A DNA stretch of 64,000 bases from Pseudo-nitzschia pungens (taxonomy: Eukaryota; Bacillariophyta; Bacillariophyceae; Bacillariales; Bacillariaceae): NCBI GenBank assembly GCA_037355855.1, contig CM074767.1, forward strand, positions 372,001-436,000, written 5' to 3'. The notes below the pieces were generated by a model. That model made no database searches. It was not told the origin of the DNA and saw nothing but the letters and a program-made list of their open reading frames with translations. Shown here piece after piece: positions 5,259 to 59,011 of this stretch (positions within the stretch are counted from its first letter, which is position 1; every line of letters starts with the position of its first letter). A program made the position numbers and the translations under genes.

Positions 5259-5357
5259 TACTACAAAGTTCCTATCAGCTGTCCCCGGTTCTACATCCTC
5301 AACTACGGTACTAATTCCTACGGAAACCGGGGGACAGCTGATAGGAATTCCGTAGTA
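5259..5357. repeat. Foldback/MITE-like element, copy A
   Basis: Terminal inverted repeats start TACTAC and end GTAGTA. The arms carry CTATCAGCTGTCCCCGG on one side and its complement with one extra G on the other. The arm sequence and the roughly 35-nt loop are shared with copies at 5754-5848 and 53551-53634, so this is a dispersed family rather than a chance hairpin. Confidence 0.8.
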
Positions 5358-5753
5358 CCGTACTCTGTGCAACTGAACTTCAGTGTCAACTTCGTTCGGG
5401 ATAAAAAATAGCCCCTTCCGAAACAAACTGCAATGATTTGTTTGCGGAGACCAACACTGGAAAATCTGCACGAAGGAATGGAACAACCGGGTTCCACTTC
5501 CAGCGTTTGTTATTTATCGTGTGTCTGCGAAAACAAAATCCAAGCAGATGCAGTTGAGATTTTGGTTTACCTTCTTTTCTATTATTGACTCGTTCGACTA
5601 GAAAACTGGTCTCTAAATCTCTACATTACCGTACTGATCCCGTTGAAGGCGTCACTCGTGTTGGGATCAGTGGAGAGTACGAATTCAGTGTTGATTTTGA
5701 TGAGTGTTGACTTTGAGTGTTGATTTCGAGTGTTGAGTGCTGATTGTGGTACG

Positions 5754-5848
5754 TACTACAAAGTTCTTATCAGCTGTCCCCGGGTTCTGCGTCCCCGACT
5801 ACTAATTTCTACTGAAACCCGGGGACAGCTGATAGGAATTCTGTAGTA
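5754..5848. repeat. Foldback/MITE-like element, copy B
   Basis: Same family and orientation as 5259-5357: TACTAC terminus, ATCAGCTGTCCCCGGG arm, loop containing GTCCCCGACTACTAATTTCT, complementary right arm ending GTAGTA. The loop matches copy C (53551-53634) more closely than copy A. Confidence 0.8.
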
Positions 5849-6017
5849 AAAACCTTATTCTGAATACCGAAGTACCGTACTTCATAACGATAATACTCAA
5901 TAAGTAGGTAAAGTATTTACGGTATCTATTCGTCCCACGACAGGATCGTGCATGTTCTACAATTACTCGTACGTACATAAGGTTTACCTACTTACGGTCC
6001 GAGTATGTTTTTCTTGG

Positions 6018-6172
6018 AGACGGATGGGGACGGATGGATGGATGGATCGACGGATCGACTGATGGACGGATGGACTGACGGATGGACTGACTGATGGATG
6101 GACGGATGGACTGACGGATGCACTGACGGATGGATGGACGGACGGACGGACGGACGGATGGATGGATGGATT
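6018..6172. repeat. GGAC/GGAT tetranucleotide tract
   Basis: An imperfect tetramer array of GGAT, GGAC and TGAC units over about 155 bp. It is open in several frames on the minus strand, producing Ser-Ile-His-Pro-rich pseudo-proteins that should not be annotated. Confidence 0.85.
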
Positions 6173-6522
6173 TGACGATCGGACAGTTGGACGGAAGACT
6201 CACTCACTTTCACACCCCAGAGCGAAAAGAAAATAGTTTTCGCAAGCTTTCTGGCGTCACCTACCGTAACCTTACTCCTACCGTACTCCTACTACAATAC
6301 AGCTCTCGGCAAGGCATCGTAATTATCCCACAGTACGAGAACCTTACTTCCCCTAACCTACCGTAACTTACCTAGTAAATTACTACACCGGTAGGGGATG
6401 GGATTTTAAATTTTTAGCCGGTTTTGTTTCTCGTTTCTCGGTTTCTCACGAATCATCCAGACGACACACGACAGATGCTTCAACTTCACATTTCCCGACA
6501 CCGATCTCCATGCGATCTCGGT

Positions 6523-6568
6523 ACGACACGACACGACACGACACGACACGACACGACACAACACGACA
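6523..6568. repeat. ACGAC pentanucleotide array upstream of the carrier gene
   Basis: About nine near-perfect CGACA/ACGAC units ending about 240 bp before the chosen start of the carrier gene. Similar pentamer arrays precede other genes in the window (27785-27855, 41813-41842, 53154-53300). Confidence 0.8.
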
Positions 6569-6810
6569 AGGGAAGGATACGGTAACTAGTAACTACGAGT
6601 TCGACGAAACGACGAAAGTCATTCCCAGATCAACGTCCGAAGAACGAAACGATCATTTTTGCAACCCGAGATTAGTTGCTGACCCGAGCAATTCATTCAG
6701 AAGTGCATTTCTCCATAGCCTCCCTCCTGCTCTTCTTTGACCCTGACCCCGATCCCAATTCGGGCTTTTTCGGAATCCGAGTCGAAATCTTCGCTCTTCG
6801 ACGGAAAACC

Positions 6811-8229
6811 ATGTTGCCACACTCTGTTCCTGCCCGTGACGGGTGCTTCCAGGAATGTCCCTGCCTGCGAGAAAGGCGTATTGGTGGCAACGACAGCAGC
6901 AGCAGCAGCAGCACAAAACCATTCACGAGGAGACGGAGACGGAGATCCGCCGCGTCGTCGGCGAATGTTTTCGCGATTTTCTTGCTACTGGCGCTGGCTT
7001 GCGTTGGGTTCGGTGCCGCCTCAAGTTTGGGAAGCATTCCCACCGCTGTCCACCACCGAACGAGATGGCTGGGCGTTGCATTCTCATCGATGTCCTCTCT
7101 TTCCTCCCCCTCCTCCTCAACGACTTCTGCGTCAGCTTCTGCGTCTGCTGCTGCTGCTGCTTCTATGTCTGTGGAAGCCCGCAATCGCTCCCTCTGGCGG
7201 ACCCGCGCCGGAGCCGCAACCGCCACCGCCGGATTCGTTGCCCCCACCCTGGAGCCCCTCTCCTACTACCTGCGGATCGCCCTCGCGGGGGGACTGGCCG
7301 GAGCCACCGGAAGCGCCGTCCTCTATCCCATCGACTCGGCCAAGACGCTCCGCCAGTCCAATCCCAAGGCCTACCGGTCCGTGAGGGACGCCCTCTGGAC
7401 GATGCTCCGCTCCAAGCACGCCCTCCAGCGGGTCTACCGGGGCATTGGTCCGGCGGCACTAGGAGCGATCCCGTCGTCGGCTCTGTACTTTGGTGCCTAC
7501 GAGTCCTCCAAGGTGGCGCTCAAGCGGTGGGTCTCGAGACACCCGGCAGGGAGCGAAACCGGCGAGCACGGCTACCGCACGCGTCTCGTGGTCCACGGCC
7601 TGGCGGCCGCCAGCGGCAACGTCCTGTCCTCCTTTGTGTTTGTTCCCAAGGAGGTCATCAAGCAACAGCTCCAGATCCGCGCGGCCGACGGAGTCGGCGG
7701 CTTTCGCGCGATCGGCAGCATCGTCCGCGAGAAGGGACTCTCCGGGCTGTACGCCGGGTACGGAGCGACCCTGTTGCGGAACATTCCGTCGGCGACGATT
7801 CGCTTCGTGCTGTACGAGGAACTCAAGCGCAAGTGGGCGTCCTCCGGCGAGAAAGGCGACGCCGGGAGCGACCGCCTCCGGTCCGCCGGGACCTTTCTGG
7901 CGGGGGCCGTCGCCGGATCGACATCCAGTTTCGTCATGACCCCCATCGACGTCGTCAAGACGCGCATGGCGACCGGGAGCTGTCCCCTCGGTGTCCGATC
8001 GTGCATGCTGCACGTCGTCCAGGACGTGGGATGGAAGGGGCTCTACGCGGGGGCCGGATCGCGGGTCCTCTGGAGCGGGGCCTTTTCGGCGATTGGCTTT
8101 GGAACCTTTGAGCTGGTCAAGGGCTGTCTGGGGGTGTCGGCATCTTCGGCATCGAAGACGAGCGAGGCTACGCCGACGGCAGCAAGGGCGTCGACGACAA
8201 CCACGAATAAATCCGTGACCGATCGGTAA
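6811..8229 (+). CDS. Mitochondrial carrier family protein, SAM-carrier-like
   Basis: Three tandem solute-carrier modules are visible, each opening with the family signature: PIDSAKT, then VPKEVIKQQLQ, then TPIDVVKTRM. Each is followed by the usual small-residue helix and a YxG motif (VYRGIG, LYAGYG, LYAGAG). The unusual first signature and the KQ in the second resemble S-adenosylmethionine carriers (SLC25A26/SAMC type), but substrate is not certain. I chose ATG 6811 (AAAACCATG), giving 472 residues. The frame stays open upstream to 6676 (517 residues). The N-terminal 130 residues contain a poly-Ser and poly-Arg stretch, then a hydrophobic segment (VFAIFLLLALACVGFG) and an Ala/Ser linker. This is longer than a typical carrier and could be a targeting presequence. 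If it is an SAM carrier it would move SAM across a mitochondrial or plastid membrane. Confidence 0.85.
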   Translation: MLPHSVPARDGCFQECPCLRERRIGGNDSSSSSSTKPFTRRRRRRSAASSANVFAIFLLLALACVGFGAASSLGSIPTAVHHRTRWLGVAFSSMSSLSSPSSSTTSASASASAAAAASMSVEARNRSLWRTRAGAATATAGFVAPTLEPLSYYLRIALAGGLAGATGSAVLYPIDSAKTLRQSNPKAYRSVRDALWTMLRSKHALQRVYRGIGPAALGAIPSSALYFGAYESSKVALKRWVSRHPAGSETGEHGYRTRLVVHGLAAASGNVLSSFVFVPKEVIKQQLQIRAADGVGGFRAIGSIVREKGLSGLYAGYGATLLRNIPSATIRFVLYEELKRKWASSGEKGDAGSDRLRSAGTFLAGAVAGSTSSFVMTPIDVVKTRMATGSCPLGVRSCMLHVVQDVGWKGLYAGAGSRVLWSGAFSAIGFGTFELVKGCLGVSASSASKTSEATPTAARASTTTTNKSVTDR

Positions 8230-9632
8230 CGCGAGTGGATTTCCGCGTGCACGAGACGCAACGCAAGACAAGACAAGACAACACAAGACAATGCAATGTT
8301 TGAAATAATAATGACAAAACGACGGCGGGTCGAAGCATTGTTTCCAACACCTTCGAGACTCCGTCTCCCGCGATGCGGAAATCTTGTTTCCCTTGCGTTT
8401 TGCTGTTTCCGACCGGAACTGCTTTGCTATCTTCTGTTCAGCACTCGACGGTTTGCTATCTTCTGTTCAGCACTCGACGGTTCGGAGCGTCGCATAACAC
8501 CGAACCCTTCCTTTTTTCCGGCGGAATGATTCATTCGCGCGCGGCAGACACCGAGCTGACCCGTACCATTTCGGCCCACAAACCTACAAATACTGCGGTT
8601 TCCGATGTGCCGACGCTGCACCGACTCTGACACCATTATTACGTTGCGATCGAACCAACCGCAGTAGAGAGCTCATCTATCATCAGCTATCCATCTCAAT
8701 TCTATTCTAAAAAAATAATGAACTATCAATTTTGGCACACGCATAGGCGGTTCGGAATCAGCGCAAAACGCAGCATTGTTGTGATTGTGATCCGTTTGCG
8801 ACTATACCACAATACCTTAAACTTGTTGTGCTGATTGCCCACCGCAAGGGCCTGTCTCGTTCCGGGTTGCGCGTCAGTCGAAAGAAGTCACTGCCAAAAC
8901 CCAAGATTGTATGCCGGGGGACGCAGAGGAACTGATTTTGGAGCATGCATCGTTCTTGGATGTACGCGGATGTACGGCATGTCGAACGACTGTTCCCCGA
9001 CCAACAACGAAATGTCGGGGAACCAAGATATTCTATTATTCTTGCTCGGTGTGTACCATTTTTTGATGCGTGACAGTGCTCGGGCAGTCTCGGTATTTGT
9101 CACGTGCAAGCCTGCCCCGTTGAAGGGGATGCCATCCTCCTTCTCGACGGAAGAGGATACAGAAATTATTTTTGAAGCGTCACGCGGTATCCAAAACAGA
9201 TTTCGTGAGAAACCGGTAGGAAGGAAGTTATTTTTAGTTCATCGGTACGGTAGGTTGGGATACGGTATGAACATGCAGCTTCGGCCCATTTTTTTCATGT
9301 GATTTCCGAGCAAGTCACTTCATACGACTAAACTCAATATGGCTAAAAATAAATCAATCAGAACGAATCACCGTTTCATAGAAACACACATGATACAAAT
9401 TATGACAAACGAATGAGCCTTTCGATCACAATTCACATTCGAATCATCCAATGCAAAAGAATCATGATGCGATCGACGAAACGGAAGCCCATCGCCCATT
9501 CAAGACTCGGCAGAGCATCACAAAACTCGAACATCAAATCCGTTGTGATTTAGTTACAAAATAATCTGACCCACATACTTTCTCTCTCGGGCGTGCACGC
9601 ACAACAAACGACACTTTTTTCACAAAGATAAC
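8230..9632. other. Spacer without a recognised gene
   Basis: The carrier stop is followed by a CAAGA pentamer run (about 8255-8290) and a 27-bp direct duplication near 8445-8495 (GCTATCTTCTGTTCAGCACT twice). A frame at 8835-9302 has no protein-like features. The AT-rich stretch 9300-9630 leads into the next gene. Confidence 0.55.
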
Positions 9633-14168: not shown

Positions 14169-16953
14169 ATGGTATCCTTTCGTTCTGCTATTCGATCGGC
14201 GATATTTTCCGGAGTGCTTCTCTCCTGTGAAGTGTACGGACTGTCGTCGATCACATCCAAACCACCCACCAATTCGTTTCCGGACATCAGCAATGCCGTC
14301 CAAGAATTCTTCAAAGTGGTCGGGTCTACCAGAGATGCAAAGGTTTTCGAAGCCCCCGTGAGACAGGACGGAATCAAATTATACATTGCCACAGACGGAG
14401 ACTTTGACCACGAGCGACCTGGAAATGGAGGGATTCGGCTGTTGGATTATCAATCCGATCGACACGCCATCGACGACGCGGTAAGTGGTTAGGGCAAATG
14501 GGTGACTGGAATGGAGTATACGAGTCATTATTTTCCATTGGGAGAAATCAGAAGGAAACTAACTTACTCTATTTGTGTCTGGTCTGTTTCACAATCGCTA
14601 GATTCGGCTCGCAGAAGGCATGACCCGAAAGCACGACATGTTCCGAACGGGGTTCTCGGGAGCAAAATTGGTAGCAAATACCGACATCCCTCTAGGCAAA
14701 GTCAAACGAAAGCAATTGATGGAAGATATTGCGAACGCTTTGGAAGGTACGAATTCTCTTTTTTTGGTGCACAAGATTTTTGCGTTTGGTTTTGCTCGCC
14801 CATTATACTTGAAAAGCGTCCATCTGACCTGTTGTTGATCCATGCCTTGCATTTCTACAGTCCTCGCGGGATCCGTTTACACCGGATGCGATTTGAACAC
14901 GTGCGACATCGATATGGACTACCTCACCCAAGCTACGAACGAACAATACGTGTTGGCCGGTCGCGATTCGGCGGTCGACACGAACGTTGCCACGGCAGCC
15001 AGTGTCATTGGCAGTATCCTCGGATTGATCGAATCCCACAAGAACGATGGCGTCAAGATTTCCGATCTGACCTTTACGGTCCAGGGATGTGGAAAGGTCG
15101 GATCCACCGTGGCGAAAGAACTGGTGCGCCTGGGGGCCAAGAAGGTTCAAACCTGCGACATTCGGGAGTCGGCCGCGGACATTGAGGGCTGCACCCCCAT
15201 TGCGGATTGGTCGAAGACACCGACCGATTTCTTGGTCCCGTGCGCCAATTCCCTTGCAATCACCGAAGACATTGCGACCAACTTTCCGGAGGGGATCCGA
15301 TTTTGCACCGGTGCCACGAACAGTCCCTTTGCCGACAACGCCAAGGCCATATTCGCCAAGCGCGGTGTGTTCCACGTGCCGGAAAGCATCAGCAGTGCCG
15401 GAGCCATCCTGGCGGATTCCGTGGAGTGGTACGATCTCGATCTATATCAAAAGGTGGAACCGATGCTCATGTACGGATGGATTCGTGGATTGAGCCAGAA
15501 GAAAGCAAAGACCATGGTCGATCTCGCCGATAAATCCTCGGTTCGAATGATCGACGTGGTCCCGGATGTGGTTCCATCGCGATCCGGAGATCCCATCGGG
15601 AAGTCGTTTCCCGAATGGATCCGAGACAACACCCAGAAAACCGAAACATTGATCGTTGGTGGGGGCATGGCCGGCTGTAGCACGGCCTTCGCGCTCGGTG
15701 AAAAGAAGGTCAAGTCGATTCTGGTCGAACGAGGATCCTCTCTGGCTCCACCCACCGCCAGCAGCAACGGGGATTCACGAATGTACCGCAAAATGTATTC
15801 GGACGAATTCTTCAGCAAGATGCAAGCCACCGCACTGGAACGATGGAAGGTGGTCGAAGAGAAAAGTGGCGAGACGCTACTGCAGAAAAACGGATTGCTT
15901 TTTTACGGGGAAGACACCGGCGAAACCGTCGAGGGATCGGTCCTTGGTGCCAAGAAAACCATGGAAAACCTCGACCTCGAGCACACATTTTTCGAAACCG
16001 GCGACGCGATCACCGAGGAATACCCCGCCCTGAAGGGATGCGAGGGCATGCCCTACAGCGGTGTGTACGAGGCGGACGCGGGGCACATCAAGGCATCCAA
16101 GGCATGCCAAGCCATGGCAAGCATTGCTCAAGACGTGTGCGACGTCCATCTGGACACCCAGATCGTGTCATTGAACGTCGGGGAAGAGAAAGTCACCGCC
16201 ACTACCCGGGACGGATTGACCATCGAGGCCGACAACGTGGTGATTGCGGCAGGTCCGTGGACCAACAGCGTCCTGGAATCGGCCGGATTGCCGAAACTCA
16301 ACGTCAAGGTCTGGGAAATCCAGTGGGCCCACTATCGAGTCAAAAAATCGGTGGCGTCGTCCATTCCCCAGGCCTTTTACTTTCGCAAGGGACGGTGCAA
16401 GGAAGATGGTGGACTGTATTACGTGTTTCCAGCGAGTGCCACCGAATCTGTCAAGAGTGAAAACGCGAATTCGAACAACAACGACGACGACTACACCTAC
16501 GTCAAGGTTGGCGTCGACTTTCCATCGGGAGGAGACATGGAGGGCATGGATGCCTTCGACTACGGTGGATCCGACAAAATCCTGGAACTCATGGACGGCT
16601 GGGTTGCCGAGCATCTCCCGGACGTGGAAGAGAGGGTCGAATCCTTCACATCGCCCTACACCATGACAGAGGACTCGTACTTTGTCATGGACACCGTGGC
16701 CGACAGGGTGGCCGTCTTTTCGGGTGGAAGCGGCCGGGCCTTCAAGTTTGGGCCGCTGATCGGGGACTGCATGGCAGCGTTGGTGACGGGCGAAAAACCA
16801 CCGGTGGCTCTGGAGCGTTTCTCGGCCTCCCGGGAGGCAATTGTTGCCGCCACCGCCAACGTCCGAGTTGCCGGCAGCAGCGAGGAGGTTTCGTCGTCGA
16901 CAGCTACAACGACAACGACAGCACAAACGGAACCCGAGGCTGCCCTCGCGTAA
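14169..16953 (+). CDS. Fusion: leucine-dehydrogenase-type ELFV domain plus sarcosine-oxidase-type FAD domain
   Basis: Three exons, 14169-14480, 14602-14746 and 14861-16953, joined by GT-AG introns of 121 and 114 nt, give 849 residues. Residues about 50-390 are an ELFV amino-acid dehydrogenase of Leu/Val/Phe type. Lys114 (MTRK), Lys126 (SGAK) and Asp163 (GCD) match the substrate and catalytic Lys-Lys-Asp of leucine dehydrogenase, with the same 12-residue Lys-Lys spacing. VQGCGKVGS (225-234) is the NAD(P) Rossmann loop. Residues about 414-830 are a DAO-superfamily flavoprotein of monomeric sarcosine/pipecolate oxidase type: LIVGGGMAGCSTA binds ADP of FAD, and SPYTMTEDSYFVMD plus GGSGRAFKFGP form the C-terminal flavin site. 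The Cys that binds FAD covalently in that family is Ser here. The N-terminus is signal-peptide-like (VLLSCEVYG). One polypeptide could interconvert keto and amino acids and oxidise N-alkyl amino acids; the substrates are unknown. Confidence 0.88.
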
Positions 16954-31767: not shown

Positions 31768-34575
31768 TTAGTACGCTATCATGTTGTCGTCGTCGAACAG
31801 GTGATCCATTCCAGCAAAGCCCCAATCGTCGTCGTCGTCCCCTCCCTCCGAGGGAGCGTATATGTTCCACTCCACCCCAATCTTATCCAGCCGCTTCTGC
31901 AGGGTGGCGTCCAGCTTGTCCTTTTTTTTCTTTTGGCGCTGGCTGTCCAGCCAGCTCCCGAGCTTTTTCGAGTCCTCGGTGTGGTCCTGGGGGACCCGGC
32001 AGTGCCCCTCCCGATCCCGGAACGCCATCAGCAGTGCAAACATGGTCTCCCACTTTTGCCCGTTCCGGTTCAGGACGACGCCGACGTCCTCGAGGCGTTT
32101 CAGGCGGGTGGGATCCAGGCTGCCGTCCTTGTAGAGCTTGCGCTGCCGGTTCAGCCACACGCCGAGTCCCTTGCCGCCTTCCCTGTGGAGCCTGGGAACT
32201 CTGCTGTCGCCCTCTCGTTCCCGGTACGCCAGAAGCAACGAGAACATTTCCTCCCACTTGTGGGCGAGCTTGTCCCAGACCACGCCAATCTCGTCGAGCT
32301 GGTCTCGCTTGACCGGATCCAGTGTGTTCCTCTTATAGAGTTTTCGCTGCAGATCCAGCCAAGTTCCGAGGGCCTTTCCTCCTTCTCGGTGGGCCTGCGG
32401 AACCATGCAATCGCCCTCTCGTTCCTTGTACTGCAGGAGCAAGGAGGCCATGTCGTCCCACTGGTCCGTCGAGACGCTCCAGATCATGCCCAACTCCTCC
32501 AGCTGCTTCTCCTTGACCGGATCGAGGGTGCCGTTCCGCCTGGCCTGGCGCTGCGAGTTGAGCCACGTCCCGAGGTTCTTGCCGTCTTCCGTGTGGCTCT
32601 GCCGGACGCAGCAGTGGCCGGTGCGCTCCTTGTATTGTTCCAGCAGCGCAACCATCGAGTCCCACTGGGCCGCCGCCACGTCCCACACGACGCCAATGGC
32701 CTCCAGGTCCTCGCACTGCTGGTCGGTGAGACTCCCGGTCTTTTTTCGGGCCCGCTGATTGTTCATCCAGATGCCGAGGTTCTTGCCGTCCTCCTTGTGG
32801 TTCTGGGGGACCAGGCAGTCGCCCTCCCGCTCTTGGTAGCGGATGAGGAGCTCGTACATTTCGTCCCACTTGGCATACACCTCCCACTCCACTCCGAGCT
32901 TGGCGAGTCGCTTTTCGCGGCGCTTGTCAAGGGTTCCCTCGCGCTTGCAGCGGCGCTGCGTCTGCAGCCAAATGCCCAGGTTGATCGTGACAACATCGTC
33001 GTCGCTTTCGTCGTCCTCTACCAGCCTGACCTTGTAGCGGTTCGGCACGTCGCAGTGGCCCTCCCGCTTCGCAAAGTCGCACAGGTGGGAAAACATTTCG
33101 TCCCACTGGTGGGCATTGACGTCCCAGACCACGCCGAGGTCTTCCAATCGCTGCTTTCGATCGGCATGGAGCTCCCCGTTCTTTTTCAAGCGGCGCTGCC
33201 GGAGCAGCCAGCGGCCGAGCTGTCGGGATTGTGATTTTTGGTCGTCCACGATGTGGTCCCGCGGCACGTTGCAGTCTCCTCGTTGGTCGCGATAGTCCTT
33301 GAGGAGGGAATACATGGCATCCCATTGATGCGCGCCGGGAGGAACCCTCCAGGTGAAGCCCTCGATGGCCTCGAGCTTTTTCGCCAGCGACGGTTCGAGG
33401 GTACCGTGCTTGTACGACTGCCGCTGGGTGTTGAGCCACGTCCCGAGGTTCTTCTTGCGTTTGTTGTCCCCATCCTTGTAACTCTGGGGGACGGAGCAGT
33501 GGCCCTCTCTTTCTTGGTACTGTTGCAAACGCCGATACATGTCCTCCCACCGCTTGGAGTGAACGCAGCCCTCGCCTGGTCCCACCACCACACCGGCGGC
33601 TTCCAGCGTGCGCTGGTGGTCGGGATGGAGGCTTCCCCGAGCTCCGGCCCGGCGCTGCCGGTCTAGCCAGTTCCCGAGCCGCAGCACGGTTCCGGTCTCC
33701 GCGTCGGTCTCCGTGTACGTTGGTGGAACCCAACAGTGTCCTTCCCGGTCCCGGTAGGCGCAGAGCAACGCCAGCATGATTTCCCACTGCTTCTGCTGCG
33801 CCGCATTGGGGTCGTGCTTTTCCCAGGCCAAGCCGTCGAGGTTTTGCAGTTTGTGAAGCTTGTCGGACGAAAGCTTTCCTTCTCTCTTGAGCTTGCGCTG
33901 GTACGAAAGCCACGTTCCGAGGTTCTCGCCGTCTTCGCTGTGGGAGTGGGGAACGTTGGGGTTGCCCTCCCGATCGTTGTATTGCTCGAGCAACCGGAAC
34001 ATTTTGTCCCACTTGGTCCGGGCTTTCGTGGAGGACACGCCCAGTTTTTGGAGCAGCTCGAGACGGTCCGGGGGTAGGCTCCCGTTGCGGATGCGCGTCC
34101 GCTGGTAATGCAGCCACGTTCCTAATTTTTCTCCCCCTTCGGCGTGCAAATACGGGACCCTGGTGTGGCCCTCCCGGTCATGGTACTCGACCAGCAATCC
34201 AAATAGCTTTTCCCAGCGCTCGACCGATTTCGATCTCGGTGTCGATCTAGATCTCGACTCGGACGACAGAGCGGAAGCTATCGTGGCGTTGGTTGGAGAC
34301 AGTTTCGAGGAGGTCATGCTAACAATGGTGAGCGGCCGGTCCGTCATGGCGGTTCGTTGTCTCGGGCAAACATGGGTGTTTCGTTGGCGGAGTCGCTGAG
34401 TGGTGGTGGGTCTCGTTTGGAACGAATAAACCAAAGCGTTCCGGGTTTGGTGATGGTGGACCGTCAGTAGCAATAAACCGGCAAGCAACCGCGGTAACAA
34501 TTTTCTAGCATGCCCCTCGCCCCGCGCCGCGGCATGCGGTCGATGACATTTGTTCAGTTGTTCCATGATGGTCAA
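31768..34575 (-). CDS. Protein of eleven helicase-associated (HA) domain repeats
   Basis: A 935-residue single-exon frame. After an N-terminal hydrophobic segment (LLPRLLAGLLLLTV) and a Thr/Ser-rich linker, residues about 125-910 are eleven consecutive HA repeats of roughly 65-75 residues. The consensus is W(D/E)xMxxLLxxYxxREGxCxVP, then LGxWLxxQR and a short linker ending LxxLGVxW. In other proteins HA repeats sit at the C-terminus of DEAD-box-like helicases and probably bind nucleic acid. Here no helicase motif is present (no GKT Walker A, no DEAD). Insertions enlarge repeats 3, 5 and 6. Stand-alone HA proteins are frequent in diatoms, to my knowledge, with unknown function. The N-terminus could be a plastid or ER signal, but the A-F motif is absent. 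Confidence 0.88.
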   Translation of the reverse strand: MTIMEQLNKCHRPHAAARGEGHARKLLPRLLAGLLLLTVHHHQTRNALVYSFQTRPTTTQRLRQRNTHVCPRQRTAMTDRPLTIVSMTSSKLSPTNATIASALSSESRSRSTPRSKSVERWEKLFGLLVEYHDREGHTRVPYLHAEGGEKLGTWLHYQRTRIRNGSLPPDRLELLQKLGVSSTKARTKWDKMFRLLEQYNDREGNPNVPHSHSEDGENLGTWLSYQRKLKREGKLSSDKLHKLQNLDGLAWEKHDPNAAQQKQWEIMLALLCAYRDREGHCWVPPTYTETDAETGTVLRLGNWLDRQRRAGARGSLHPDHQRTLEAAGVVVGPGEGCVHSKRWEDMYRRLQQYQEREGHCSVPQSYKDGDNKRKKNLGTWLNTQRQSYKHGTLEPSLAKKLEAIEGFTWRVPPGAHQWDAMYSLLKDYRDQRGDCNVPRDHIVDDQKSQSRQLGRWLLRQRRLKKNGELHADRKQRLEDLGVVWDVNAHQWDEMFSHLCDFAKREGHCDVPNRYKVRLVEDDESDDDVVTINLGIWLQTQRRCKREGTLDKRREKRLAKLGVEWEVYAKWDEMYELLIRYQEREGDCLVPQNHKEDGKNLGIWMNNQRARKKTGSLTDQQCEDLEAIGVVWDVAAAQWDSMVALLEQYKERTGHCCVRQSHTEDGKNLGTWLNSQRQARRNGTLDPVKEKQLEELGMIWSVSTDQWDDMASLLLQYKEREGDCMVPQAHREGGKALGTWLDLQRKLYKRNTLDPVKRDQLDEIGVVWDKLAHKWEEMFSLLLAYREREGDSRVPRLHREGGKGLGVWLNRQRKLYKDGSLDPTRLKRLEDVGVVLNRNGQKWETMFALLMAFRDREGHCRVPQDHTEDSKKLGSWLDSQRQKKKKDKLDATLQKRLDKIGVEWNIYAPSEGGDDDDDWGFAGMDHLFDDDNMIAY

Positions 34576-35351
34576 TGTCGCAATTCTGTGAAAAAAGTTT
34601 GCGTTGTTTTCTTTGTCGCCGTCGGCGGTTTTGTTGCCTCGGAAATTTGTCCAAGATCTATCCGTTGGATGTTGCTTTTTGTGGCATTACTGGGGTGAGG
34701 TTTTGTGACCGCGGATCGATTAGTTCTGGAGACTATCTTACTTGCACCTTCCCGGAGTTGTCGTTGCGTCACCCTCTTAGGATCACGACGGCAAATGCCA
34801 TGATCGGGTGCTAGTCAATCCTATTGCTCCGACCCTGAGGCAGGAGGCACGCAGGGTATGAATGACGTTTCTGGCTTACATCATGTATCATTATTTCGGA
34901 TCGATCCAGGATTGATCCAAACCGAAATCGCAACCTACGTCTTACCTACTCCTCGTCAAAAATGTAGAGAAATATTGGCTAAAAATAGTAAAATGTTGGA
35001 ACAAGATAGAAAAATAAATACAACGTGTACTTCGTTCATACTCGTACGTATGACGTACGTACGAGTAATATTTTTTGTTCTTCTTATGTTGCGTATTCAT
35101 CCTTATTAAGGGGAGGGTTATAGAAGGATTCGTCACAACGGCTTTTTTTCTTTGTGAGACAAGGACCAATTGGAATTGAATTGTATCTTGAAATTCCTTA
35201 CGACTTTCGATCGAACGAATTTTTCGGAGAATACTTGCATCATTCGGCATCATTTCACAATCCAATAACCGATAATATCAGTATTTGGATATGTAACGTA
35301 CGCAACGCAACACAAACAGTGATTCCGATCCAATACCATCCCAACCCGACA
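34576..35351. other. Spacer between divergent genes
   Basis: Two promoters must lie here, for the HA protein (leftward) and the lumenal protein (rightward). It contains GTACGTA/ACGTACG words near 35040-35065 and a short ACGCAACGCAACAC run about 40 bp before the next ATG. The frame to the right is open from 35154, but the segment before 35352 is not protein-like. Confidence 0.45.
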
Positions 35352-50030: not shown

Positions 50031-51405
50031 GAAACAAAAAACCGAGATGATGATGCCGCGATCCAAAACACGGGCAGGATTGGTGGAGCCGTTGCGCCCG
50101 CGCATGCGAATGCGAATGCGAATGCGAACAATGCGGAGAGTTCTGTCGCGGCTGCGGCGCTGCTCCGCGGTAGGTGTCCGTTTCGTTTGAGATTCCATCC
50201 GTTGTATTCTATAAAATATATAAAGAATGTTCGTTAATTGTTTTAGCTTTCGAATTCGCATTGCAAACCATCGTGACCAGACATTGCGTTGACTTGGAGA
50301 GAGAGACCTGGAGTATCGGAAGTAGCTTCGTCTTTCATTGGTACGGGTCTCTGCATCCACTGGATAGTGGTACCTGTACAGTTAGAGGTGATTTGATACT
50401 GCTGACATTGTGAAGGACATCGATCCCAAGGATGATATCATTGACAAAATCCTCGTCTGTATCTTGATGATGTTCTTGGCAATGATACATGTATTTGGTG
50501 GTGTGGAAGGATTGGTTTGCTGTTGTGGCCATTAGTATCTGCTGCTAAGATCGATCCAATCGGTGTCGTTTCAATTGATATGGCGCTCCTGTTGATAAGA
50601 ATTACTATAGCTCGGTCATCGATGAGGGCTGCCAACAACTTTGATTTCGAGATTTGTTTTGTACGTAACGAATGATACTGAGCAAGATGGCAGCCACCGT
50701 GCTCCTTGCATAGGTTGTACTAGAAATGAGTCTTGATAAACTTTGCTCCAACACACCTATGTGGGAGCTATTTATGGTTGTTGTGGAAAAGATCTCGAGT
50801 ATTTTCAAAATTCCTGCGGGCCGATGTATTGTGAAAGACCAAACCATTGTAGTACTTTTCATGGCGCTGGGCCCTTATCGATATCGCGTATCGATTTGTT
50901 TCCGTCAGTCGCCTTTGTCGCTTTTTCGATTGCTCGTGCCAATCGAACCTGTTTTTGCTTGGTCAGAAACAGCAGATATTTTCTGATTACCGTAAGTTCC
51001 TTCCACAATCTTTCCGGGAGGTGCTCCGGATGGGTCCGGTTGGCATGTCTTTTCGCTCCTCCCGTTTTTTCCTGCGGCGGGTAGAAGAGGTCTCGAGAGA
51101 GCATTAGCTTGTTGCAACAACGCGGTGATGCGAACATAGTAGGTCTCTTTAGTTTCGAAAATCGAATCAACAAATCAAATCTTTTGTACAGTGTTATTGA
51201 ATAAACCAGTTACAGTGCACTTTTGTGCAGTTTTCTATTGCATTTTAATTTTATCAGACTCTCGTCTGCACACACCGTCAAACTCGACAACCGGGACCAC
51301 TTTTGAAGAAACGATTCCGATCTATTTCAATCAATCCAATCTAATCCAATCCAATCTAATCCAATCCAATCAATTCCAATCAATACCAACCCGAAATGAT
51401 CAACG
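50031..51405. other. Spacer with a GCGAAT run and CCAAT/CTAAT pentamers
   Basis: Starts with a 6-bp ATGCGA/GCGAAT run (50103-50130). It ends with a pentamer-like CCAAT/CTAAT run (51326-51390) just past the stop codon of the methylglyoxal synthase gene. The frames in between are not protein-like. Confidence 0.5.
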
Positions 51406-53153
51406 TTACTGGTTTTCACTGATGGCGCTGATGGTGCTTGGCCGGACCTGGAGGGGCTGTTGAGTGACCATCATGGAGGCCCGTGCCTCCTTCTTTTGGG
51501 AATCGACCACCGCCTTTTGCTGGGCCTTGTAGGCCTCCACGGTGGGCGACTGCAGGGAAAAGAAAAAGGAAGGGATCAGTTCCGCTCGTCCGTTCTGGAG
51601 GGCGGTCCGCAGGCACTCCACCATCATGAGCGCCGACGTGGGGGTCTCGGCTATCATGGTGTTGTGGACCAGAGCCTGTCGCACGAGGCAGTCAATGTCG
51701 GCCCGGTGGGGGTGGGCGTTCATCGGATCCTGGAAGAAGAAAATGCCGCCGATCTTTCCCGTCACCATGTGGGCCACCAGCTCGGCGTCTCCCCCGAGGG
51801 GGCCCGAGGCGCAGGCGGGTCCGAAGGCGACCGTGCCGGGAGGCTCGTCCTTGAAGACCTCCTTGAGCATGGTCATGGTGCTGTTGGTTCCCGTCAGGCG
51901 GAATTTCTTCAGGAGGTTCCTGTTGGCCAAGACAAACTGCCGCATGGTCTTTTTCATCTCGTTGTGGGAGACCAGGGCCAGGCACCGCATCGCCGAGGGA
52001 GCGAATTTTGCCTCAAAGTCCGGATCGTGGGTCTCGCTTACCGAGAGCTCTTCCTCGTCGAATATGCTTTCGAAATCGATCTGTAAGCTCTTGTTGTTCC
52101 CGATGGAGGCGTTGAGGTTGCCTTCCTGGATGCAGAGAATGTCCTTGAACGGGTAAAGCCTGTTGGCGCACCCGCTGAGGATGTGGTAGGTGTCCCGCTG
52201 GGACTTCCCTACCACCTTGTTGACGAGCGCGGTCAGACTGTGCATGGTTTCCGTGCTGCCCCGCCGGGAAAAGAGGGTGTCCGCGCTGTTCCGCCGGGTA
52301 TAGTGGGTGCTCGCGCTGTCCCGTCGGGTCAGGCCGGATGTGTCGCTGCCGCGTCGTGCAAAGACCTGCTCGTGTTCGTCCAAGGTCGAGTCGTCGAAGT
52401 CCTCGTCGCCCTCCTCCATGAGCATGGCGAGTTCGTGCAGACACATCTGAAGAACAACGCGTCGACAAAAAATTTGGCAATAAAATATAATAAAATAAAA
52501 TGTTTGGTAAGCTCTGCCGTTCTTTTCGCTGAATTTCGTGTGACTCGACAACGCATCAATTCATGCATCCATTCAACCATTCATTCATTCGTAAGATTCA
52601 TTCATGCAATCATCCCAATCATTCTCCCGTTCTTACCGAGATCGCAGACGACCTGCGTTTGCTGGATTTGGAATTTCGTTTCACGTATTTCTCGAGCATA
52701 CGGTACTCGCAGAAATCAAGCATACCGTTTTTGTCCCTGTCGAATTCATCGAGCAACGTCTCGACGTGCGACATCGTAATGTCATCCTTTCCGGTGATTT
52801 CGGCAATCGCGTTGCTGAGTTCGGTGCGATTGAGGTGACCTGGAGACAAAAGACACGAAATGCGATGAAAATCACAAAACATGCCGCGCAGAGTGTTCGT
52901 TAGTTTTTGCTTGTGGAAACTGCACACTTCTGGCACGACAGGGCACCACAATGAAAATGAAACGACGTTGCAGACAGAACCGCGGTGGATAGTTCCGAAT
53001 CGATAAGAGTCACTCACCATCGTTGTCTGCGTCGAATCTTTCAAAAATCTGGTGGGACTTTTCTTGTTGAATCAGCGAGACTCTGCGCTGATGCGCCATG
53101 GGGGTTTCGCTCACGACGATCTTGCCTTCTGGATTTGCTTGCGGCTCCGCCAT
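51406..53153 (-). CDS. EF-hand / RRxS-repeat / methylglyoxal synthase fusion
   Basis: Three exons on the minus strand, 53153-53018, 52839-52637 and 52446-51406, with consensus GTGAGT and GTAAGA donors, give 459 residues. Residues 41-52 (DADNDGHLNRTE) and 79-90 (DRDKNGMLDFCE) are two canonical EF-hand Ca2+ loops; the first is split by intron 1. Residues 144-180 hold RRGS, RRDS, RRNS and RRGS at an exact 10-residue period, typical basophilic-kinase or 14-3-3 sites. Residues about 268-390 are a methylglyoxal synthase domain: LALVSHNEMKK, LTGTNS, SGPLGGDAELVAHMVTGKI, FFFQDPMNAHPHRADID. His274, Lys278, Asp333 (catalytic base), His360 and Asp363 match the E. coli MgsA residues. MgsA converts DHAP to methylglyoxal and phosphate. 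No signal peptide, so probably cytosolic. The fusion suggests Ca2+ and phosphorylation control. Confidence 0.9.
52237..52356 (-). repeat. 30-bp in-frame tandem repeat encoding four RRxS motifs
   Basis: Four 30-bp units encode (F/L/Y)(A/T/S)RRxS plus spacer, residues 144-183 of the EF-hand/methylglyoxal synthase protein. Codons differ between units (CGGGGC, CGGGAC, CGGAAC), while Arg-Arg and Ser are kept in all four. This is more than replication slippage alone would maintain. Confidence 0.85.
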
Positions 53154-53300
53154 TGTTGATGAGTTGAGATGAGTTGAGATGAGATGAGATGAGATGAGAT
53201 CAGTTGAGATGAGATCAGATCAGATCAGTTGAGATGAGATTAGATCAGATAAAGTAGAATAAGATCAGATTGGATAAGATCAGATTGGATAAGATCAGAT
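53154..53300. repeat. GAGAT pentamer array at the start of the methylglyoxal synthase gene
   Basis: An imperfect array of GAGAT, GAGTT and CAGAT units running about 150 bp directly from the gene's ATG (53153) upstream. It therefore occupies the 5' leader and core promoter. The distal units are the most diverged (GGATAAGATCAGATTGGATA). Confidence 0.8.
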
Positions 53301-53550
53301 AGGATAAGTTTGCACGCTTGCTCATTTGTCGAGAAAGATTGTAAGTTCGTCACGGAACTCTGTCGTTGGTGTCGTCTGCACGGTAAGGTAAATATACTAC
53401 TACGTCAAACCTTACTTCAGAATTCTTTTTCCCGGAGGGATTTCACAGTGGGATCCTATTGCCTCCATAACCTTACCGTAGAGAAGAATTGATATTGTGA
53501 TTTCTGATGAGAACAGTCAATCAGCTTAAATAGGAGCACGTGACCGACAT

Positions 53551-53634
53551 GTAGCTGTCCCCCAGTTTCTGTTGAGTAGAAATTAGTAGTCGGGGACGTA
53601 GAACCGGGGGACAGCTGATAGGAATTTTGTGGTA
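53551..53634. repeat. Foldback/MITE-like element, copy C (inverted)
   Basis: Opposite orientation to copies at 5259 and 5754: AGCTGTCCCCCAG, loop with AGTAGAAATTAGTAGTCGGG, arm GGGGGACAGCTGATAGGAAT and terminus near GGTAG. The left terminus is truncated. It directly abuts the first copy of the 470-bp duplication. Confidence 0.75.
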
Positions 53635-53635
53635 G

Positions 53636-54106
53636 AAGTAGAAAGTGTGTGGAATTGAAATGTCAAAGTTCGGAAAAAATATGGACGAAAAAAAATCATT
53701 AATGACAAGAACTGCACAAAAAGAAAGATAATGATATACATTATGGTAAAGGTAAGATATCTATTGTTTCGATTCCGCTGCCTAAGCCCTGGATCCCTTA
53801 TGAAAAGAGAAAGGAACAGTTTGGAATTATTCGTTTTCATCTCAACTGAATAAGCAATCAAGCAATACAATATGCCTACGGTACTCGTACAAGTATTTCA
53901 AAAGAATAGGATGACTTTCTTCTACTACTTCCCGGTATCTGTGTCATATCTCGCAAACTTCCTCTGTGATATAATTGACCGGTACAATCTTCGTTGTAAA
54001 AAAATATCAACCATTCGGCCGACACACACTGCTGGGAAAAATAAATATTGAAAAAATGGAAGCACAAAACTTCTACTTCGTACTACGTAAGGTTGCCGGT
54101 AAGGTC
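53636..54106. repeat. 470-bp direct repeat, copy 1
   Basis: Nearly identical to 54181-54650, offset 545 bp, beginning AAGTAGAAAGTGTGTGGAAT and ending GTTGCCGGTAAGGTC. The differences I see are one-base changes in A/T runs. No coding potential is evident. A 74-bp segment separates the copies. Confidence 0.9.
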
Positions 54107-54180
54107 TTACTTCGTACTTCGTATTTTGAACAATAAATAGAAATTAGAAAGTATGGTACAATAGTACGTGTAAGGTTTAA

Positions 54181-54650
54181 AAGTAGAAAGTGTGTGGAAT
54201 TGAAATGTCAAAGTTCGGAAAAAATATGGACGAAAAAAAATCATTAATGACAAGAACTGCACAAAAAGAAAGATAATGATATACATTATGGTAAAGGTAA
54301 GATATCTATTGTTTCGATTCCGCTGCCTAAGCCCTGGATCCCTTATGAAAAGAGAAAGGAACAGTTTGGAATTATTCGTTTTCATCTCAACTGAATAAGC
54401 AATCAAGCAATACAATATGCCTACGGTACTCGTACAAGTATTTTCAAAAGAATAGGATGACTTTCTTCTACTACTTCCCGGTATCTGTGTCATATCTCGC
54501 AAACTTCCTCTGTGATATAATTGACCGGTACAATCTTCGTTGTAAAAAATATCAACCATTCGGCCGACACACACTGCTGGGAAAAATAAATATTGAAAAA
54601 TGGAAGCACAAAACTTCTACTTCGTACTACGTAAGGTTGCCGGTAAGGTC
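54181..54650. repeat. 470-bp direct repeat, copy 2
   Basis: Second copy of 53636-54106. Without TG...CA ends, primer-binding site or polypurine tract, it is better explained as a recent local duplication than as paired LTRs. Confidence 0.9.
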
Positions 54651-56463
54651 TAATAGTACTTCGTACTACGTGATTCAAGATGATAATATACTACCTTCGT
54701 AATCATGATCACGTCGGACATGGAATAAATACGGTATTATGATAAGTGCTACTACGTACATCGTAGAGTAAGGCTAACGTATCACCACATACAAGTTTCA
54801 ACGCTGATATTAGGGCTTTTTTAAAAGTTGAAAACTCTTCCATTTTTTTCTACATGACACCCTAGATTACTCCCAATGCTAACCATAAGTAACACTGTAT
54901 TCCCGAACCTGTGTGACCATCTAAATTTGACAAACTCGACTCAATTTTTTTCCATTGCTCGTCGTCCATCTCTTTCTCTTTGACTGAAATAGCCAGGAAC
55001 CCCCATTGGACAGCAATCGATTCACAAGATGGAAACTTTTACTTTTACGAGTACAAGCACCGGCGGCACAAGTAACCTTAATTTTAAGTTACTTTGTACT
55101 TCATACGGTAGATCTTATGATGAGGATGGTGACTGTTATATCATGTTGCAATTTTGTGTGACAAGTTTTTTTCGAGTCAATAGCTACTAAGAAGTGACAA
55201 GAGCATCTGCTTTTTGTGGTTTGCTCAGTGAACCCACCAACAAGTAGTAGAGTAACACCTGGAATCCCTTCCATGAATTGAGGAGCTCATTTAGAGGAGT
55301 ACTGGCACCACCAGCAGAATCAGGTAGTAGTACTAAAGACGAGGACCACTAGCTGGTGGGGATGAGCAAGCCCTCCAGAACACGGGAACATCCTCATTCA
55401 TTCGTGCACTTTATGGTTCAAGAAGGGACTGATTTGAATTCTTGGAAGTACTAAGGTACTACTAAGTCTTACTCGTAGTACGAAGTACAGGAATTATTTT
55501 CTAGTATCGTACATCACTTGCTCCTGCACAGATCTTCTACCGATAGTCCTGTCATGGTGCCAACCAGAACGAATAGTCTCCTACGACGTAAGTTACGCCG
55601 TTATGCAATCTCATCTTCTGGCGTGAATCCCCGGTAGGAATGTGCTAAGTAAGGTTACAAAGCACGAAGTTCGAAGTAGTAGTAGTTTTTTTGCATCGGT
55701 GTGAACGATGAATTTCGACGAATCTTTTGAAATCTTCTGGAAGAATCCTTTTGGGGTGAGATGGTCAGTGTCAACTAGCGATTGGTTGGTTGGTTTCGTT
55801 CCAATCGGCACGCGATTGTTTCGGGAGCGCTCGGAGTTTCGAATCAATCGCCCGTCGACAATTTTAATGATTAGGTCCGTACAAGTACTATGTAATTGCA
55901 TGTAGCTACACACCTGTTTTAAAGCAAGCACTCAAAATGTCAGTGTCACTCCGATGAAACACAAGAATGAGGTAGTAGGAGCGGTAGGATGAATGAAATC
56001 GGGAAGAAAACATGCAACCTTACCGTAACTTACGGTAGTATTGAAAGTTCAGGTGAGGTACCGGTATTCAAGCATTTACGAAGTAAGGTAAGGTTAACCT
56101 TACCCGATACCAGCAAAAAATAAAGAAAATAATGATGATGATACATTGATTAGAATACGAGTAACGAATTTGGTCAACTTCAAACTAAGACTTACCGTGC
56201 TACCGTACGTACCCCTATCTACGAAGTTTTCTCGTCACCCCAACAACGGACGACAACGCCGGACACTCTCTCTCTCTGCACCTACAGGCCAGTGCGCGAT
56301 ACAAGCAGTGCAGTGAGCAGCAGGACTCACAACAGAAGAGGACGACACGACAAGACAGGACACGACACTAGAAAAGGAGGCGGAACCAACTTCGTTGTGC
56401 CGATTGATTGTTCTTTCGATAGGATTGCATAGGATTGCATAGGAACAGACAGTAGCAGCCACC
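54651..56463. other. AT-rich spacer
   Basis: No gene seen. Contains GTAAGGTTA and ACGAAGTA words, triplet runs (about 55240, 55320) and, close to the polyphosphate-polymerase gene, an ACGAC/AGGAC run (56340-56367) and a doubled ATAGGATTGC (56418-56440). A frame at 55611-55931 is not protein-like. Confidence 0.5.
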
Positions 56464-59011
56464 ATGGTCGGTTTTGGAGAGCATCTGAAGGCTAATATTG
56501 CGCCCGAGTACGGAGCAGAGGCTTACGTAAACTACAAGGAGCTGGATGAGCTGATCCAGCAGCTCTCGGCTACGGCCCCTAGTGGGTAAGTCGCTGTCAT
56601 CTGCCATCGGTATTGGATGTGCGTGTTTTGTTTTGGGTTTGTCGTTTGTCGTTTGTCGTTTGCTGTCGATCCAAGCAGTGAGGAACAAGAAAAGGAGCAA
56701 ACAGGAGCATCCAATTTTGATTCAGGGACAACCGTCTTGGGAGTTCCACCATTCTATCTCGCCAACGCTAACAGTGTTTTCCAACGCGATCCCACGAAAA
56801 CGGCCGTCGACAACATCCGGTTTATTCTTTTCCTGCCATGTTCCCTGTTTTCGGAACGAACGCTTCACGCTTCCAAACACCCTACAACAAACAACAAACA
56901 ACAATCTACATTCCATTGCATCGAATCGCATTGCATCGAATCGCATCGAACCGTGTTGAATCCCAACCCGCAGACCCGATTTGCAAAACCGCCAGGTGTC
57001 GATGACGGTCCCCCCGCAGACCGACGCCCGCGGGTTGGCGGTGACCAACAACGTCGTGACGGAGGAACAATTCTTGCGCAAGATGGACTTTGAACTGGCC
57101 AAGGTCGAAAGATTCACCCTCTTGCAGGTGGACGCACTCCGCACAAAGATCGATGCCGTCGAGAACAAACCCCAGCCGGACATGGACGCGGCCGACGAGA
57201 TCGCCAACGACTTCTTGCAGCTCGAAAAATACGTCAACATCAATTTCATGGGATTTCACAAGATTCTCAAAAAACACGACAAGAATCTTCCCAACGTGCC
57301 CTGCAAGGCCTTTTACGTCTCGCGGATGCACGCGCAGGCCTGGGTCCGGGGGGACTACTCGGACCTGGTGGTCCGGCTCTCCCACATCTATTCGAGCCTT
57401 CGGGACGACCGCGTGGCCGACGAGCGCAACGACCAGCAGTCCTTTTTGCGGCAGACCACCAAGTATTGGGTCAAGACCGAGGACGTCTCACGCGTCAAGT
57501 ACTACATCCTGAGGCACCTGCCCGTCTTTTTGCAAAAGACCTCCACCGGTGAGTCCGACTCGCAGTTCACCAACTCGGTCTACATGGACAACGATCAGCT
57601 CGAGCTGTACCACGGCCGGCTCGAAAAATCCCCGGGAGCGATCGCCCTGCGACTGCGGTGGTACGGAAATGGGAACCCCAAGCTGGTCTTTGTGGAGCGC
57701 AAGACCCACAACGACAAGTGGACCGGGGAGGTTTCCGTCAAGGAGCGGTTCACGGTCGACGAATCGGAGGTCCACCAGGTCATGACCAACACGTACCCGA
57801 TCGAGGAAAAGAAAAAAGCGATGCTCGCCAAGGGCAAATCCCAGACCGAGTGCGACGAGTGGGAAACGCTGGTGAGAGAAATCACCCAGGTCTTTGTCAG
57901 CAAGCAGCTGGTCCCGACCTGCCGGACCCAGTGCATGCGGACCGCCTTCCAGATCCCCTTTGACGCCACGGTCCGCATCTCCCTCGACACGAACCTGTGC
58001 ATGATCTCCGAGCGGGGATACGAGCTCAACGGGATGAAGACCTGGTTCCGGAACCCGGACTGGATCCTCCAGCCGAACGAGATCACGCGGTTCCCCCACG
58101 CCGTCCTGGAGATCAAGCTGGAGCTCAAAGGGGGGAACCTGACGCCGCCCAAGTGGGTCCGGGATTTGCAAAACTCGGGACTTATCTACGAGTGCCACAA
58201 GTACTCTAAATACTGCCACGGAACGGCGGTCCTGCTGCCGGAGGACGTTCGGGCCGTCCCGTACTGGGTCGACGACGTGACGCTTCGGGAGTCCATCCTG
58301 GCCAGCGGCGGGGGCCGAATCCTTATGGAGCCGGGAGAACCCCCGGCTCCCGGCGCTAATGCCGTCTACGACCACCTGCTCCCATTCGGGGACCACTCGA
58401 ACGACCGGAGCCAGAGCGCCGTCGGCCGGACCCACGCCAGCGTGGCTGCCTCCAAGGGCGTCACGGGGAAGGACTACACCAAGACCAACGTGCAGACGGG
58501 CTTTGGCATCGACAGCGGGGAGCCCGAGACCGCAAACGTCTACGACGAGTACGCCTCGGACGACGAGGACGCCATCTGCGGCTGGGTCTTTCCGTTTTGC
58601 AGCCGGTACAACGATTATGCGGCACAGGTGGTCGCACCGACGTCCATCCAAAAGATCGAGCCCAAGCTCTTTTTTGCCAACGAGAGGACCTACCTGCACT
58701 GGCTGCACTACGCGGTCGTGCTGAGCAGCATCGGCTCGGCCGTCCTGAGTCTGTCGCAGGACGACCCCAGCCAGGGATGGCGGCAGTGGTACGCCATGGC
58801 GCTGCTGCCCATCTCGCTGGCCTTTTGCATCTACGCTCTGCACGTGTTTTTGTGGCGGCTGGACCAGATCAAGCGGCGGATCCCGGCCCGCTGGGACGAT
58901 CCGATGGGCCCCATCCTGCTGGGATCGGCCGTGGTGGTGATCCTGATTGTCCAGTTTTTCAGCCACCTGTACGAAATTGCCAGGGCCGACATCGAGGAGG
59001 GGGAGATTTAG
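56464..59011 (+). CDS. VTC4: SPX-VTC polyphosphate polymerase (VTC4-type) with VTC1-like membrane domain
   Basis: Two exons, 56464-56585 and 56974-59011, joined by a 388-nt GT-AG intron (GTAAGT donor) give 719 residues. An SPX domain is at the N-terminus (MVGFGEHLKANIAPEY; basic inositol-pyrophosphate site FHKILKKHDK near 135-144). Residues about 190-460 are the VTC catalytic tunnel: RLRWYG (267-272), VERKTH (281-286), CMRTAFQIPFDATVRISLDT, AVLEIKLELKGG. These carry the Arg/Lys/Glu residues that bind ATP phosphates and Mn in yeast Vtc4. The C-terminal about 100 residues have three hydrophobic helices (LHYAVVLSSIGSAVLSL, MALLPISLAFCIYALHVFLW, LLGSAVVVILIVQFF), a VTC1/DUF202-type anchor. The enzyme makes polyphosphate from ATP and feeds it into a vacuole. 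SPX implies activation when phosphate is ample. The intron's 3' half has GAATCGCATTGCATC-type repeats. Confidence 0.92.

Follow-up and report, generated by a model that had tools for sequence, protein, structure and literature searches.

Does one polypeptide of a diatom join a pair of EF-hands to a methylglyoxal synthase (MGS), and could such a protein let Ca2+ act on triose phosphate? The question is raised by a gene at positions 51406..53153, on the minus strand, of a 64,000-nucleotide stretch of Pseudo-nitzschia pungens DNA (assembly GCA_037355855.1, contig CM074767.1, 372,001 to 436,000), referred to here as the window. In bacteria, MgsA acts as a stand-alone enzyme, producing a toxic aldehyde and freeing phosphate. 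Judged from the sequences of its members, the EF-hand–MgsA fusion (EF-MGS) to which the window protein belongs is a real and conserved family of diatoms; this eukaryotic lineage has turned MgsA into a multigene family and joined it to a domain of the Ca2+-sensor type. We lean, with modest confidence, towards the reading that the polypeptide is a Ca2+-tuned enzyme of the MgsA type, which would convert dihydroxyacetone phosphate (DHAP) to methylglyoxal and phosphate.

One polypeptide with an EF-hand pair and an MgsA-type domain

The gene has three exons and two GT-AG introns, and its product is 459 amino acids long. In the gene model, exon 1 (53018..53153) contains the start codon, an N-terminal RRVS site and the start of EF-hand loop 1; exon 2 (52637..52839) contains the remainder of that loop, loop 2 (52741-52706) and a KRRSS site (52660-52646); and exon 3 (51406..52446), for which profiles were also used, contains an array of RRxS sites, a linker helix, the MGS domain, a C-terminal tail and the stop codon TAA. 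Intron 1 (52840..53017, 178 bases) interrupts loop 1, and intron 2 occupies 52447..52636 (190 bases). A preliminary description of this DNA had read these exons as a single polypeptide, and the family bears this out. P0001, labelled as a complete MMETSP open reading frame (ORF) of 454 residues, shares 84% identity with the window protein over 99% of that query, has the same architecture and starts at the same position, its first eight residues being identical. Both the EF pair and the MGS domain are carried by P0002 from Pseudo-nitzschia multiseries (71% identity; species according to the JGI label) and by five further MMETSP rows (P0014, P0053, P0055, P0057 and P0065), and proteins from short contigs of ~1.3-1.6 kb hold the two parts in one frame. 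MMETSP has supplied transcriptome databases (PMC13187674). Since relatives exist as single proteins with both parts, and three other loci of the same genome have EF-hand exons ahead of the MGS exon, we rejected a chimeric gene model that would assign exons 1-2 and exon 3 to separate transcripts; we regard it as extremely improbable.

The two complete EF-hand loops lie where the preliminary description had placed them, at residues 41-52 (DADNDGHLNRTE) and 79-90 (DRDKNGMLDFCE). The Pfam EF-hand pair model PF13499 matched residues 31-91 of the window protein above its cut-off (E = 1.1e-10), as did PF00036, PF13405 and PF13202, with a fifth EF-hand model, PF13833, remaining below. In the structure model of P0001 the helices span residues 21-40/50-61 and 68-78/88-102, so that the canonical 12-residue loops sit in a helix-loop-helix pair, as expected for an EF-hand protein. 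In an alignment of 70 EF-MGS members, both loops have near-invariant Ca2+ ligands at positions 1 and 12; position 5 of loop 1 varies (K in 27/70, N in 25/70). The EF pair is predicted to bind Ca2+.

The second half of the protein holds the MGS domain with a C-terminal extension (residues 264-427, 51505..51996), delimited by profiles, a PDB search, alignment and fold. The NCBIfam methylglyoxal synthase model NF003559 matched it with E = 5.2e-29 and 100.8 bits (cut-off 84), and the closest PDB relatives of residues 265-394 in a sequence search were bacterial methylglyoxal synthases. The fold is that of bacterial MgsA (EC 4.2.3.3; E. coli 1b93, Thermus 2xw6/2x8w, B. subtilis 6f2c), and the window protein retains, in E. 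coli numbering, His19, Lys23, Thr45, Thr48, Ser65-Gly66, Asp71, Asp91, His98 and Asp101. It differs from the bacterial enzyme in having Asn for Asp20, TNSTM for TGTTG in the phosphate loop, and an insert of ~7 residues ahead of the SGPLGGD motif, besides the fused EF pair, the linker helix and a C-terminal helix. The MGS-like allosteric domain of carbamoyl-phosphate synthetase has the superfamily fold in common with the window protein; however, the profile, the PDB sequence search and the fold, which fits MgsA better, all favor MgsA. We therefore rejected a domain of the carbamoyl-phosphate-synthetase type, to which we give next to no probability, in agreement with the first assignment of this domain to MgsA. 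The Pfam MGS model PF02142 gave no match to the window protein at E ≤ 1, and none of the 70 aligned EF-MGS members matched it at 1e-3.

Distribution and origin of the family

Relatives were collected by three protein searches, from each of which the best 120 were listed (353, 354 and 166 passed the E-value), yielding at least 258 distinct proteins. These 258 and the window protein make up the 259-protein set used below, in which the EF pair was called with a profile built from the alignment of the 70 EF-MGS members. The EF pair was detected in 78 of the 259 proteins, and 20 carry two MGS domains in tandem; the remaining group, 161 proteins with a single MGS domain and no EF match, includes many from short contigs that are possibly fragments. 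The search for the combined architecture proposed at the outset thus found relatives, and every member with a resolved name is a diatom: Pseudo-nitzschia multistriata, Pseudo-nitzschia multiseries and Chaetoceros tenuissimus by organism name, and Attheya septentrionalis, Coscinodiscus wailesii, Thalassiothrix antarctica and Chaetoceros brevis by taxid. Because EF-MGS proteins occur in both Pseudo-nitzschia and Chaetoceros, the fusion is probably old within diatoms. The P. pungens genome (66.9 Mb, 28 contigs) contains six MGS loci; in four of them, the MGS exon is preceded by EF-hand exons.

Public records name these proteins unevenly. The EF-bearing JGI rows P0040, P0066 and P0107 are called methylglyoxal synthase, and P0210 from Chaetoceros tenuissimus is called methylglyoxal synthase-like; P0007, P0106 and P0109 are named as EF-hand proteins only. 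Since some records mention only the EF-hand and the Pfam MGS model misses all 70 aligned members, the family is easy to overlook. In the tree, all 58 eukaryote rows fell on one side, on a long stem of 2.12 changes per column; the neighbor of this clade was weakly supported (60), and the program warned of long branches meeting. For these reasons we name no donor for the eukaryotic domain. One scan of viral contigs, with the exon-3 protein as query, returned no close relatives.

On contig C3, the EF-MGS paralogue L004 sits between two ORFs, L097:6574-7989 (-) and L098:4828-5694 (-), the flanking products being a fumarylacetoacetate hydrolase fused to a short-chain dehydrogenase and a protein of the mandelate-racemase type. 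This neighborhood presumably resembles a cluster for deoxy-sugar-acid breakdown.

Active site and proposed function

The preliminary description had listed His274, Lys278, Asp333, His360 and Asp363 as matching the MgsA pattern; all five are where it put them and are conserved, but it missed a family-wide change of the residue next to the first, Asn275, which corresponds to E. coli Asp20. To compare the family with bacteria, 80 bacterial loci were fetched, and 75 domains were obtained by a pattern requiring the His, the Lys/Arg place and GGD (five loci gave none); for the family itself, a second comparison relied on a profile free of these motif requirements and recovered 279 domains from the 259 proteins. 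Position 20 is Asp in 74 of the 75 bacterial domains and Asn in one (L074, Salegentibacter). The other positions examined are largely kept in the 279 family domains: His19 in 272, Lys23 in 266, Thr45 in 268, Thr48 in 273, Gly66 in 274, Asp71 in 271, Asp91 in 279, His98 in 275 and Asp101 in 279. In the phosphate loop, Gly46 is replaced mostly by Asn (237/279) and Gly49 mostly by Met (269/279). The family provides a natural experiment in which an active-site aspartate has been swapped almost throughout one clade. A 1998 mutagenesis paper, going by its title, is said to have tested conserved aspartates.

The roles given for MGS residues assign the base to D71, helper functions to H19 and H98, and phosphate binding to K23, S65 and T45-G49 (passage of PMC7843640). 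As quoted in PMC1877815, the Catalytic Site Atlas gives H19, G66, D71, D91, H98 and D101 for MGS, with Asp20 absent; according to the alignment, the window protein has all six. The catalytic set is present, with an altered neighboring residue and an altered phosphate loop. Because Asp20 has become Asn family-wide, catalysis cannot be assumed. As Asp20 lies outside the quoted catalytic list, we retain the claim of an MgsA-type domain; given Asn275, we do not retain that of a proven enzyme.

All nine checked residues are intact in 76 of the 78 EF-MGS proteins and in 156 of the 161 proteins with a single MGS domain and no EF match, three of the five misses being cut-off starts. The corresponding figures for tandem proteins are 16/20 for first domains and 7/20 for second domains. 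The intact state of the EF-linked domains may be read as selection for function, by which the DHAP reaction is not proven. Regarding the tandem-MGS proteins themselves (P0036, P0047, P0067 and others), the second domain is without at least one checked residue in 13/20, which resembles a pair of a catalytic enzyme and a pseudo-enzyme.

If the protein is a Ca2+-tuned enzyme, its MGS domain would convert DHAP to methylglyoxal and free phosphate, with Ca2+ adjusting the rate, and Asn at position 20 would alter catalysis without abolishing it. The segment through which Ca2+ might act is residues 183-220 (52126..52239), a predicted helix followed by YPFKDILCIQ just ahead of the MGS domain, which the alignment and the P0001 structure model indicate is kept across the EF-MGS family. 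The Ca2+-loaded EF pair may engage this linker helix and the YPFKDILCIQ segment, and this engagement might either relieve or impose a block on the MGS domain. The output would be phosphate release and triose phosphate removal, probably in the cytosol, since a signal-like hydrophobic stretch was looked for at the N-terminus and none was seen. A Ca2+ gate of this kind is plausible. CRSH, a plant Ca2+-activated EF-hand (p)ppGpp synthetase, likewise pairs EF-hands with a metabolic enzyme of bacterial type, again in a photosynthetic eukaryote, and its activity is described as Ca2+-dependent in vitro (PMC6881373), which indicates that such a fusion can accompany Ca2+-dependent activity; CRSH is an unrelated enzyme, and its EF domain is C-terminal. 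PtCDPK2 and other Ca2+-dependent protein kinases of diatoms also fuse EF-hands to an effector domain, but the effector is a kinase and not a lyase, and five of the nine found in PMC13187674 have four predicted EF-hands.

Several observations weigh against a Ca2+-tuned enzyme. The profile check proposed for the MGS region was divided: NF003559 scored above its cut-off, and TIGR00160 (MGSA), at 76.3 bits, fell short of the 146.9 set for it. Among the 279 profile-based domains, 263 have Asn at position 20 and two have Asp, and the phosphate loop of the window protein reads T-N-S-T-M, in which Thr45 and Thr48 are retained and Gly46 and Gly49 replaced. The P0001 model gives no inter-domain confidence, and its pLDDT is low at 126-170, 212-219 and 221-226, which flank the linker helix. 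Moreover, two of the six P. pungens MGS loci have a long basic N-terminus and no EF match in 1.5 kb flanks, and keep the MGS domain, indicating that members of the family need not be under Ca2+ control.

Some of these observations would suit a protein in which the MGS domain remains able to bind phosphate, DHAP or a related triose phosphate, elimination having been lost or changed by the Asp-to-Asn replacement, so that it reads the phosphate or triose state together with Ca2+, as a sensor or an altered enzyme. The replacements at position 20 and at Gly49 and the long stem of the eukaryote clade point in this direction. A review passage states that MGS strips phosphate from DHAP to form methylglyoxal, and that this formation is a phosphate source and can act as a phosphate sensor (PMC11852113). 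On the other hand, the quoted catalytic residues exclude Asp20 and are kept, the EF-linked domains are almost free of decay, the bacterial MgsA-like protein L074 has Asn at position 20, and the EF-MGS protein P0165 retains the bacterial Asp (VAHD), which makes P0165 a natural counterpart for comparison with the Asn form. We consider a sensor or altered enzyme rather unlikely, though of appreciable weight. It is distinctly less probable that the MGS domain is active and unregulated, with the EF pair serving anchoring, oligomer assembly or stability instead of gating. The two paralogues that have a basic N-terminus in place of the EF pair are compatible with such a role, as is the variable position 5 of loop 1; the near-invariance of positions 1 and 12 in both loops speaks against it.

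Basic sites, phosphate context and neighboring genes

Control by basophilic kinases had also been proposed, from four RRxS sites at exact 10-residue spacing. The sites are present as described, starting at residues 144, 154, 164 and 174, in four 10-residue units (residues 143-182, 52240..52359, minus strand; repeat scan and alignments). The array coincides with a 30-bp DNA tandem repeat (52246-52328, 2.8 copies, 79% matches), so its sites cannot be counted as four separate events. In comparison with P0001, only 14 of 30 aligned residues of the array region are identical (47%, with 10 gaps), against 74/83 in the EF region and 157/163 (96%) in the MGS domain. This nearest relative has no four-site array; it retains one RRxS in the region, amid degenerate units of equal spacing, so the array may have been gained in the window gene or may have decayed in P0001. 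The array as a conserved kinase input was rejected on these grounds, and the proposal of kinase control through it did not hold. Further basic sites are RRVS at residue 23, which is RRVS in P0001 and RRES in P0002, and KRRSS at 106-110, after the EF pair, which is found in P0001, P0002 and P0005 and is not family-wide. As single basic sites recur in near relatives, the protein may still be phosphorylated. At least one [RK]Rx[ST] motif precedes the MGS domain in 48 of the 70 aligned EF-MGS members and none does in 22, as raw counts.

The preliminary description had also stated that a eukaryotic version under Ca2+ and kinase control is not known to be described. For the architecture, we found no paper on an EF-hand–methylglyoxal synthase combination, in narrow searches and in broad ones that covered the top-ranked 12-15 papers out of 17 to 9,395. 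For the enzyme as such, the statement needs qualifying: a Capra hircus methylglyoxal synthase is named in PMC7843640, a goat-liver enzyme is referenced in PMC11852113, and some relatives of the window protein already bear the name publicly. The word methylglyoxal is absent from the main text of three phosphorus papers (PMC13187674, PMC8233357, PMC7283521) and of the review PMC11448323.

In passages of two of these sources, diatoms are described as sensing phosphate resupply via Ca2+ (PMC11448323, PMC13187674); the 2024 review calls the downstream Ca2+-sensor machinery unknown (PMC11448323), and in the 2026 PtCDPK2 paper (PMC13187674) the way diatoms decode Ca2+ is still described as poorly understood. 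A Ca2+-tuned phosphate-releasing enzyme, as predicted from sequence, would fit this pathway. The EF-MGS protein is a concrete, testable candidate for the Ca2+ sensor downstream of phosphate sensing and, if the reading is true, would link Ca2+ signals to sugar and phosphate metabolism in diatoms. A wider proposal, which we think unlikely, is that EF-MGS is a multigene Ca2+-decoding valve and the missing effector of the phosphate-Ca2+ pathway: a phosphate-linked Ca2+ signal would switch triose phosphate to methylglyoxal and phosphate, and the head-to-head arrangement with the sole VTC gene found would look as if release and storage were co-controlled.

That divergent neighbor is a polyphosphate polymerase gene of the SPX-VTC-DUF202 type, a single open frame at 56960..59011 on the plus strand (Pfam, VTC E = 8.5e-64), and the only PF09359 match among those returned for the genome by a search that scores exons and reports best candidates only. 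Between it and the EF-MGS gene lie ORFs of at most 193 residues and a 545-bp tandem duplication. The flanks of the remaining five MGS loci, nearly 10 kb in either direction, contained 53 ORFs of at least 150 residues (MGS exons included), and no phosphate gene was found among the 28 of these 53 that were scanned with Pfam. A phosphate-gene neighborhood as a rule of the family was therefore rejected, and the VTC neighbor is a single post hoc observation; as functional context it is a possible hint and not part of the protein. For Phaeodactylum, several VTC subunits are reported in PMC7283521 to respond to phosphate limitation with moderate regulation at most, and Vtc4, an SPX protein, is differentially expressed in the dataset of PMC8233357. 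Glyoxalase I-like and II-like matches were found in the P. pungens genome by an exon-wise search, under the curated cut-offs.

Short-unit repeats of the GATGA and CAATC types border the EF-MGS gene, at 53158-53308 right before the start codon and at 51314-51389 past the stop. Upstream of the gene, a direct duplication (window 53633-54651) has a spacing of 544-546 bp and pieces that are 89-100% identical. Elsewhere in the window, a single 704-residue frame at 14839-16950 (+) combines a partial match to an ELFV-type dehydrogenase with a full match to an FAD-dependent oxidoreductase and may encode a fused enzyme, and a 972-residue frame at 31771-34686 (-) contains 11 helicase-associated (HA) repeats and no further Pfam match.
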